Origin: Armatimonadota bacterium
Lineage (GTDB): Bacteria; Armatimonadota; Fimbriimonadia; Fimbriimonadales; Fimbriimonadaceae
Length of the DNA stretch: 64,000 nucleotides
Assembly: GCA_018268395.1 (NCBI GenBank)
Contig: JAFDWQ010000001.1
Location: forward strand, 1 to 64,000
Direction: 5' to 3'
The notes beneath the pieces were generated by a model. The model was not told the origin of the DNA. It saw nothing but the letters and a program-made list of their open reading frames with translations, and did not search any database. The position numbers and the translations under genes were made by a program. Shown piece after piece: positions 1 through 2,100 of this stretch (position 1 is the first letter of the stretch; the number at the start of each line of letters is the position of its first letter).

Positions 1-1
1 C

Positions 2-262
2 CCGGTCTGCAACGGGTCGGTCGCAATCGAAATTTCCGCCATGCCGCGTTGCCAGACCGGGCCACCCGTCCTCTCGAACGTCGCCCCCGGCACAATGGTG
101 CGCGTGTTCAACTTCACGGGCAACACGGCGAGCTGGACTGTAGGCGTCAACATACTGGCGATCGCAAACAACAAAATGGCGGAATTCGTGTTCTACGACG
201 ATGGCGGCACTGGCCGTTGGTTGATCACTCAGAGCAACGTTGACGCGAAAAGGTGGCCGTAA
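2..262 (+). CDS. C-terminal fragment of an unrecognised protein (5' end outside window)
   Basis: The frame is open from the left edge to a TAA at 260-262, giving about 86 residues of a longer protein. An internal ATG at 41 exists, but coding-like sequence continues upstream of it, so the gene most likely starts outside the window. The segment is rich in small polar and beta-branched residues (for example FNFTGNTASWTVG and VFYDDGGTGRW), which suggests a beta-rich, surface or tail-fibre-like C-terminus. I do not recognise the family. It converges with the next gene, with only 14 bases between the stops. Confidence 0.5.
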   Translation, partial: PVCNGSVAIEISAMPRCQTGPPVLSNVAPGTMVRVFNFTGNTASWTVGVNILAIANNKMAEFVFYDDGGTGRWLITQSNVDAKRWP

Positions 263-276
263 CGGCTTTCCATTTG

Positions 277-897
277 TCATCGAGCCGGGGGAACTGCCCT
301 CGGCTCGATATTAACGTAAAACCGGGTGACGCAATAGGTCGTTGGGTTCGGAAAAGCGTCGAAGTCCTGCCTGAACGTGATTGCGGTGACTCGCGTCCAA
401 TCGACGACGCCCTGAAAGTCAGAACGCTTAAAGAGGATACCCCGAGGCTGACCTTGCCAATACGCGTTGCCCGCACTCTGGCCGAACTTGTCCCGAACCG
501 TAATTGCAAACACGTCCGCGGTTCGCCCAGCGGAAACAGTAAAGTAGTCGACCCAGAAGCAGGCCACGTTCGACAAGTTGACGGGAGGAGAAACAAGACT
601 GCAGTTCACTTGCAGATAGTAAGTCCAAGTCATCTCGGCCGTTGTAGTGACCATTTGTTTGCGATTGCCGATTGAGAGCGTCAACGTACCGCCGTTCGTG
701 AAACTCCCGACTTGCACCTGGGCTGCGCGTCGGGGGAAGAGGCATTGGGACCTTGGAAGATCGAACCACTCGTTGCCCCCAGACTGGTTTTTCGTAAACG
801 ACTCTTGGTAGAGCGGCGTGTCGAAGCGGTCAATGTCGACGAACTTATAGTGCTGATCCTGACCGAGGCAGAGGGCGGCCGTGAGGGCAACGGTCAT
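277..897 (-). CDS. Secreted protein of unknown function
   Basis: A 206-residue protein starting at an ATG read from 897 downwards. The N-terminus is a short hydrophobic signal peptide (MTVALTAALCLG followed by QDQ), so export is likely. The rest is rich in Ser, Thr, Phe and aromatic residues with an alternating beta-strand pattern and has no catalytic motif I recognise. The start has no strong Shine-Dalgarno, although a TAGAAT-like -10 lies close upstream. The gene is isolated: the stop faces the preceding gene and the 5' side opens onto the repeat-rich RAYT region. Confidence 0.6.
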   Translation of the reverse strand: MTVALTAALCLGQDQHYKFVDIDRFDTPLYQESFTKNQSGGNEWFDLPRSQCLFPRRAAQVQVGSFTNGGTLTLSIGNRKQMVTTTAEMTWTYYLQVNCSLVSPPVNLSNVACFWVDYFTVSAGRTADVFAITVRDKFGQSAGNAYWQGQPRGILFKRSDFQGVVDWTRVTAITFRQDFDAFPNPTTYCVTRFYVNIEPRAVPPAR

Positions 898-1055: not shown

Positions 1056-1115
1056 TGCCTCCAGACTCCGAAAGCCTCTTGCTCCCGACAACGGACGGAC
1101 TTAGTCTGGAGGCTT
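1056..1115 (+). repeat. REP-1 palindromic element, upstream copy 1
   Basis: A 60-bp unit opening with TGCCTCCAGACT and closing with AGTCTGGAGGCTT, so its 11-base ends are inverted complements around a variable core. The same unit recurs at 1291-1350 and, inverted, at 1931-1990 and 2041-2100. The four copies bracket the transposase gene. Confidence 0.85.
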
Positions 1116-1124
1116 GACGGACGA

Positions 1125-1186
1125 CGGGTGGCAGGGGTGAAACGGGATGTCCGTGCCCGTTTGCACCCCTGTCTGAAGGACCACGG
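1125..1186 (+). repeat. REP-2 hairpin element, copy A
   Basis: An approximately 62-bp imperfect palindrome. The inner stem pairs GGGTGAAACGGG with CCCGTTTGCACCC across a short GATGT-containing loop. An outer GGTGG pairs with CCAC near the 3' end. Related units lie at 2118-2176 (inverted), 28416-28470 and 29234-29295. Confidence 0.75.
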
Positions 1187-1290
1187 CCCGCAAGGTAACG
1201 TCCCCCCGGTGCGCAGGCGGACGTTCAACGATCCCGGACACGCCCACGAGCTCACGTTCTCGACCTACAGGAGGGCCAGGCTCTTTTGGA

Positions 1291-1350
1291 TGCCTCCAGA
1301 CTTCGAAGGCCTCCCGCTCCCGACAACGGACCCACTTAGTCTGGAGGCTT
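1291..1350 (+). repeat. REP-1 palindromic element, upstream copy 2
   Basis: Second 60-bp upstream copy, with the same 11-base terminal inverted repeats (GCCTCCAGACT / AGTCTGGAGGC). Its core is close to that of the copy at 1056; both contain CTCCCGACAACGGAC. It ends 34 bases before the transposase start. Confidence 0.85.
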
Positions 1351-1384
1351 GACGGACCGATCATGACGGTAACCTCCGCCCTTC

Positions 1385-1945
1385 TTGGCCAGGTATCGGC
1401 ACTATCAGAACCGGGGTGGCCCGGGCGACGACGTTTTCGTCACGACGACGTGCCTGGACTTCGCGCTGCTGTTCGCCCGGCCGGAGATGCGCTCTGCGGT
1501 CGGGGCTTCGCTGCTCGGCGACCTCGACCACTATGGTGCGGTCCTGCACGCCTACGTCGTCATGCCGCACCACGTCCATCTTGTCGTGCGGGCGCCTTCC
1601 GATATGGGGCCACCCGCCCTGATGCAGCGGCTCAAGAAGAACGCCGCCGACCGGCTGCTCCCCTTGCTAGAGCCCGATGAAGCCGCCCAACTGTCGCAGC
1701 AGGAAGGTCTGGACGGACGTCGGTTCTGGAAGCGGTCGTTCCGTTCGCTGGTGCTCGAGAGAGACCGCACCTTCTGGCAGAAAGTGGGCTACGTCCACCA
1801 GAACCCGGTCCGTGCCGGCCTGGCCGTACGGGCCGAGGACTACCCATGGTCGAGCGCCCGAGCGATGAAGTCCGGAAGGTGGTCGTGGGAGGAAGGCTGC
1901 CTGCAGGCGTGCTTGGAGTCGGTGCGGACGAAGCCTCCAGACTAG
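1385..1945 (+). CDS. REP-associated tyrosine transposase (RAYT, Y1/HUH superfamily)
   Basis: A 186-residue single-strand DNA transposase of the REP-associated Y1 family. These proteins nick and join REP hairpins and are usually single-copy domesticated relatives of IS200 transposases. Visible signatures are the metal-binding HUH motif in MPHHVHLVV (His63 and His65) and the segment YVHQNPVRAGL around Tyr136, the likely nucleophile, followed by DYPWSSA. The start is TTG (LARYRHYQN); no ATG fits and no strong Shine-Dalgarno is seen. Two REP-1 copies lie on each side in inverted orientation, as expected for a RAYT and its cognate repeats. The TAG stop at 1943-1945 lies inside the first downstream REP-1 copy, so the last residues (VRTKPPD) are encoded by the repeat and its conserved flank. 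Confidence 0.9.
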   Translation: MARYRHYQNRGGPGDDVFVTTTCLDFALLFARPEMRSAVGASLLGDLDHYGAVLHAYVVMPHHVHLVVRAPSDMGPPALMQRLKKNAADRLLPLLEPDEAAQLSQQEGLDGRRFWKRSFRSLVLERDRTFWQKVGYVHQNPVRAGLAVRAEDYPWSSARAMKSGRWSWEEGCLQACLESVRTKPPD

Positions 1946-1990
1946 TTTCGGCGGCGCGCGGTGTGAGGTGGTGTCCGGAGTCTGGAGGCA
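1931..1990 (-). repeat. REP-1 palindromic element, downstream copy 1 (inverted)
   Basis: A 60-bp unit that, read on the minus strand, opens TGCCTCCAGACTCCG and closes TAGTCTGGAGGCTT, matching the upstream copies at both ends. Its core differs from theirs. It supplies the stop codon of the transposase. Confidence 0.85.
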
Positions 1991-2040
1991 GCAACGTCAG
2001 ACCGGCCCTTGAAGCCGCGTGTTGTGAGCCGGTGCGGACG

Positions 2041-2100
2041 AAGCCTCCAGACTAGGCCCGGCGGCGTGCGGTCTGAGGTGGTGTCCGGAGTCTGGAGGCA
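2041..2100 (-). repeat. REP-1 palindromic element, downstream copy 2 (inverted)
   Basis: Near copy of 1931-1990 displaced by exactly 110 bases. The ten bases in front of each copy (GGTGCGGACG at 1921 and 2031) are also conserved, so the duplicated unit is longer than the palindrome itself. Confidence 0.85.

Follow-up and report, generated by a model that had tools for sequence, protein, structure and literature searches.

A RAYT-class transposase gene between inverted hairpins in an Armatimonadota genome: a probable IS-like element with a MITE family

The window analyzed here comprises 64,000 nucleotides from an Armatimonadota bacterium (assembly GCA_018268395.1, contig JAFDWQ010000001.1, positions 1 to 64,000). 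Near its start lies an intact reading frame (positions 1385-1945, + strand, TTG start at 1385) for a 186-aa Y1 HUH transposase of the RAYT or TnpA-REP type, with the HUH residues H63 and H65, the catalytic Y136 and a Y---NP motif. The start position agrees with the N-termini of related proteins, and the last codons (K-P-P-D-stop, AAG CCT CCA GAC TAG) are located inside an arm of the first downstream hairpin. The assignment to the RAYT family, made previously in a sequence-only reading of the locus, is supported by the family model, by invariant motifs and by the nearest solved relative. The NCBIfam model REP_Tyr_transpos (NF047646) gave 80.8 bits, marginally above its cut-off of 80, and the IS200 model (NF033573) 27.2 bits, far below its cut-off of 55. 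H63, H65, Y136, N140 and P141 are invariant among 12 clade members, and Y1_Tnp was the sole domain found with Pfam. A PDB search with the single sequence returned no match, whereas a profile of the clade identified E. coli TnpA-REP (4er8) as the top solved structure (E-value 1.7e-10). The same structure was the best Foldseek match of the AlphaFold model (pLDDT 90; E-value 4.7e-9, TM 0.61/0.68), above ISDra2 and IS608. The genome contains one intact RAYT of this clade.

Four palindromic units surround the gene, as the sequence-only reading had noticed, each measuring 57 bp from arm to arm (its 60-bp windows were 1-2 nt wider). Two units with a core of type A are located upstream, at 1057-1113 (+ strand, outer copy, foot TTGGCT at 1051-1056) and 1292-1348 (+ strand, foot TTGGAT at 1286-1291), and two with a core of type B downstream, at 1933-1989 (- strand, complementary foot at 1990-1995) and 2043-2099 (- strand). 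All eight arms match the 11-bp terminal inverted repeats GCCTCCAGACT/AGTCTGGAGGC perfectly. With up to one mismatch, the window contains 11 arm matches versus 1.1 expected, a number that no shuffle equalled. Unit orientation confirmed that the two downstream units point the opposite way to the two upstream ones. Left and right also have different cores, with 83-86% identity within a side versus 43-51% between sides.

A count of the 11-base ends over the whole assembly (3.72 Mb in 15 contigs; perfect arms, cores of 30-46 nt) identified 22 units, versus none for the reversed control pattern, so the unit is not confined to this locus. Degenerate and partial copies detected by BLAST are additional to these. 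Cores are mostly 35 nt long, and a short-loop version of the window stem was not found in this genome. When oriented by their flanks, all units have a single polarity, 5'-TTKGCT-GCCTCCAGACT-core-AGTCTGGAGGC-TT, with TTKGCT as outer foot and TT on the inner side, and TTKGCT faces away from the RAYT gene in every unit of the window. On the 3' side, A units are followed by TTGACGGAC or TTGTCGG and B units by TTCGTCCGCACCGRCTC. In 30 units, the information content outside the hairpin was 1.2-1.9 bits at positions -5, -3, -2 and -1 and 0.4-0.5 bits at -4 and -6, and conservation was close to background beyond 5-6 nt, which delimits the foot TTKGCT. The outer boundary of the unit is sharp, because the information content is near zero past -6. 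Some long cores may form an inner stem; in A cores the inner hairpin is weak, with one clearly covarying pair, and it is broken in the window's own two A copies. The idea that the 35-nt loop arose from a nested REP or a decayed REPIN was rejected, as arm-like sequence in 13 long cores did not exceed that in shuffled cores, except in one case.

Other palindromes are interspersed with these units. Family Q (CCCGGTCTG...CAGACCGGG, 42-43-nt loop; window positions 1-61 and 1009-1047) has 23 perfect-arm copies of two core types in this genome, and contigs C1 and C15 each start exactly with a Q copy, probably an assembly break. Palindrome P (GGGGTGAAACGGG...CCCGTTTGCACCCC) is present at 1134-1172 and 2131-2170, with one inverted copy on each side of the RAYT gene, and the stretch 2105-2177 is similar to many places in the genome. 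A composite repeat of a B hairpin, a tail of about 60 nt and a Q hairpin, with fixed spacing, was found at C8:47184, C8:44954, C5:174627, C1:390855 and C8:66049 (L050, L051, L058, L062), as if the ends of two RAYT systems travelled together. Paralogous uncharacterized genes (window 277-897, - strand; C8 from ~66270 onwards; C1 from ~389990 onwards) have about 60 bp of upstream sequence in common, and a B or Q hairpin lies just before the start codon.

The RAYT composite (1051-1995) sits within one such B-tail-Q repeat. A truncated Q palindrome with arm CCCGGTCTGGCAACGG (1009-1050, - strand) is the left remnant of the interrupted repeat, and its tail (1996-2042, - strand) follows on the right together with the outer B hairpin (2043-2099). 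Uninterrupted paralogous copies exist at C8:66043-66319 and elsewhere; one uninterrupted site was interpretable for the insertion. Between the Q remnant and the tail about 44 bp of the repeat are absent, so the insertion was not clean. In the same genus no clean empty site was found, and the flanks inspected showed no apparent target-site duplication. The minimal candidate element within the composite consists of foot, A hairpin, RAYT gene, B hairpin and foot (1286-1995, + strand), with the inner A unit as left end (LE) and the inner B unit as right end (RE). That the entire flank was simply duplicated in inverted form was ruled out, since the order of P palindromes and units on one side does not mirror that on the other; that the outer B unit is part of another repeat also contradicts it.

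Both ends of the minimal element recur in a family of MITEs in the same genome. Five full copies of about 240 bp (~235-246 bp) were found at C1:985900-986145, C12:48939-49182, C5:142510-142754, C8:67213-67450 and C8:68963-~69197, and one truncated copy at C8:47997. They consist of an A hairpin, an N-terminal stub of the RAYT gene joined to its last codons, and a B hairpin. One deletion junction, with about 450 bp of the gene absent, is common to all six. The copies are spread over four contigs, with the same ends and unrelated flanks: 200-bp flanks were mutually dissimilar, and the sole match among those tested joins two B-tail-adjacent sites. Several copies with the ends of the parent, a common internal deletion and unrelated flanks are what defines a MITE family, and an A/B-ended element with a MITE family founded by a single deletion should leave such copies. 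Judged by their pairwise identity of 75-88%, the MITEs are old. Every full copy pairs an A end with a B end, which is consistent with the earlier suggestion that the two sides may be differently processed. A B hairpin with a short remnant of the RAYT C-terminus was also found at C3:340143.

Further evidence comes from relatives, which are represented by assemblies, mostly MAGs, with some RAYT fragments at contig ends. Two full copies of the RAYT element were found in one relative only, G050, which belongs to the same order. The two intact genes are 92% identical over 640 bp. Similarity comprises hairpin, gene, hairpin and foot (TTWAACT and AGTTAA), and on either side it stops within a few bases of the hairpin, beyond which the flanks are unrelated. 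For this pair, dN is 0.06 and dS 0.19, and the dN/dS ratio of about 0.32 suggests that both copies remained under selection. The same genome contains dozens of short solo matches to the hairpin with a 6-nt foot, and an inverted pair of short-loop hairpins, separated by 160 bp and enclosing the first RAYT codons (L187, G050:C13, 568-752), a possible short-loop MITE. A RAYT duplication in G034 was set aside as evidence for movement, since the second copy reaches the contig end. It comprises two RAYTs of a second clade, 1.8 kb apart and identical over 712 bp (100%; L195, G034:C1:3300500-3304852), for which very recent transposition or an assembly effect is possible.

Together, these observations make it probable that the locus is an autonomous IS-like element, made of a TnpA-REP-class transposase and two inverted hairpins, A as left and B as right end. 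The MITEs support this reading because they share one junction between an A end and a B end, and the paralogous uninterrupted sites because they show the RAYT composite inserted in another repeat. Since the G050 copies match over hairpin, gene, hairpin and foot while their flanks are unrelated, they point to joint movement of gene and hairpins as an IS-like unit, at variance with the prevailing view that tnpA-REP genes are immobile. Against it stand the ~44-bp loss at the insertion, the single intact clade member in this genome, the age of the MITEs and the restriction of two full copies to one relative.

An alternative is an ordinary REPtron, i.e., a domesticated and immobile RAYT gene that spreads only REP-like hairpins in trans. 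Solo hairpins outnumber the gene copies in the window genome and in G050, the window genome has one intact RAYT of the clade, and most RAYTs in the literature occur once per genome, mobility of tnpA-REP being without evidence (PMC8266576). Against it stand the RAYT stub and C-terminal codons between both hairpins of the MITEs and the two G050 copies sharing hairpin-gene-hairpin in unrelated flanks, and we consider this alternative unlikely. Some of the patterns could be mimicked, without any transposition, if the repeated hairpins recombined or caused replication slippage (segmental duplication, gene conversion); the units do cluster and nest with the Q and P palindromes, and composites such as B-tail-Q exist. 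It is nevertheless very improbable as a general explanation, given MITEs with the same ends and unrelated flanks on four contigs and a conservation boundary at the same nucleotides in 30 copies.

The relation between hairpins and transposase in other genomes also speaks for the IS-like reading. RAYTs of the same clade in relatives of the same family and order are 38-52% identical, and they are flanked by palindromes with the same placement and orientation, mostly of the form [NAT]-GCCTCnnnnnn-(3-6 nt)-nnnnnnGAGGC-T. In a stem alignment of ten hairpins from seven genomes, 100% of the cells were paired, with double changes in 6 of 11 pairs. The CCTC stem base was invariant and the upper stem covaried, and none of 500 shuffles reached the covariation score. 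With a covariance model, each of the 16 relatives that carry a RAYT of this clade yielded 3-93 hairpin copies; among 44 genomes without one, just 5 had three or more (Fisher p 1.4e-10), two of these five carrying RAYT fragments. By this co-occurrence, the palindromes are the cognate repeats of this RAYT. It is hardly credible, then, that the ends are terminal inverted repeats moved by another, DDE-type transposase with the Y1 gene as passenger: both ends are indeed inverted copies (TTKGCTGCCTCCAGACT), unlike IS200/IS605 ends, but throughout an order, RAYTs of this clade lie between hairpins of this kind, whose abundance follows the clade, both ends can themselves fold into hairpins whose stems covary, and target-site duplications were not apparent in the inspected flanks.

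Loop length is not constant in these hairpins. Loops in relatives have either 3-6 or 33-55 nt, the long ones at the RAYTs G016:C267, G016:C183, G007:C1, G014:C15, G050:C124 and G009:C2 (the last with a 9-bp stem). The window's exact stem is present with a 3-nt loop eight times in G022, once in G019 and not in the window genome, and with a 34-36-nt loop in the window genome and, in a single copy, in its congener G001. At least six changes of loop length are required by parsimony on the RAYT tree, with a poorly resolved backbone and a weak state for L034. At least two changes are firm, because two strongly supported sister pairs, each from a single genome (G014:C15/C8 and G016:C183/C141), have opposite loop states. 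In G001 and G050:C137, some units have an extra right arm, possibly an intermediate of loop growth. In this genus, RAYTs of a second clade lie between long-loop hairpins of the CCCGGTCTG type (L040, L042, G001:C85:36540-36601), and G020 has a short-loop version of this type (L038), so that loops may have lengthened in parallel in two RAYT systems.

In the IS-like element that we favor, the Y1 HUH protein would bind both hairpins on single-stranded DNA, recognizing GCCTC/GAGGC at the base of the stem and TTKGCT as the 5' foot, and Tyr136 would cut at the outer feet. The intervening strand would then be moved; it would carry the RAYT gene or, for mobilization in trans, be the ~240-bp deletion derivative. 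Single hairpins would be spread as well, and the window copy may still be active. The loop, 35 nt here and 3 nt in cousins, would probably not be read in detail, and the A and B cores would mark left and right ends. More tentatively, and with less than even confidence, the locus may belong to a living, non-domesticated lineage of TnpA-REP-class transposons in Armatimonadota, in which the enzyme reads stem base and foot, the loop can switch freely between ~3 and ~35-55 nt, and long loops serve as A/B labels that give REP-like hairpins the polarity of IS ends. The 240-bp MITEs are ready-made non-autonomous substrates, and sister transposases with hairpins differing mainly in loop length make the hairpin parts read by the enzyme directly testable.

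A limited full-text literature search surfaced no published account of Armatimonadota RAYTs, and we compared the element with systems known from elsewhere. It resembles IS200/IS605 elements and their MITEs as an autonomous Y1 element with one hairpin per end, internally deleted relatives and no apparent target duplication. It differs in the Y---NP rather than Y---Q motif, in the low IS200 model score and in its ends, which are inverted hairpins of like sequence with the feet outward. REPINs (Bertels and Rainey 2011) consist of two inverted REPs with a spacer and are likewise symmetric palindromic units spread by a RAYT, but here a single outer stem is present, and inner arm copies were not above chance in 12 of 13 cores. 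The class 3 TnpA-Y1 proteins (Quentin 2018, PMC6006769) are said in their description to share features with IS as well as with REPtrons and to have secondary structures that are atypical, but have Y----Q and a CnGA foot instead of Y---NP.

REPtrons are closest in their protein, a class 2 Y---NP HUH transposase with 4er8 as best fold and profile match, and also have the gene between inverted palindromes that are repeated in the genome. By definition, a canonical REP has a loop of 2-5 nt and, on the 5' side of its hairpin, the tetranucleotide GTAG or GTGG (PMC6006769), whereas here the foot is TTKGCT (30 units) and the loop mostly 35 nt. Loop sequence matters for the TnpA-REP of S. maltophilia and Marinomonas, not for that of E. 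coli (PMC8266576), and a 35-nt loop would agree with an E. coli-like mode. The earlier statement that a RAYT acts here on REP hairpins is thus incomplete: it holds for the transposase and its cognate palindromes, but not for the REP label; moreover, gene and hairpins appear to have moved jointly, leaving MITEs, rather than being an immobile single copy, even though the window genome has one intact copy of the clade.

The nearest described arrangement is that of TIRYTs and TIRtrons (Di Nocera 2013, PMC3733652), with a RAYT-like gene between inverted repeats that are unrelated to GTAG REPs, are also found elsewhere in the genome and are in some cases self-complementary. The GGGGWSAS motif of most TIRtron repeats is absent from the TTKGCT-GCCTCCAGACT ends, and the C-terminal HTH domain of TIRYT subclass 2.1 was not found by Pfam in the 186-aa protein; here, in addition, stem and foot are defined by covariation across genomes. 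We describe the locus as a presumably mobile IS-like element of the RAYT class, bounded by inverted hairpins and accompanied by MITEs. For the spread of REPs and the present mobility of their transposases, this locus and its relatives offer a concrete candidate with defined ends, bearing on how a transposon becomes a REP system or the reverse.
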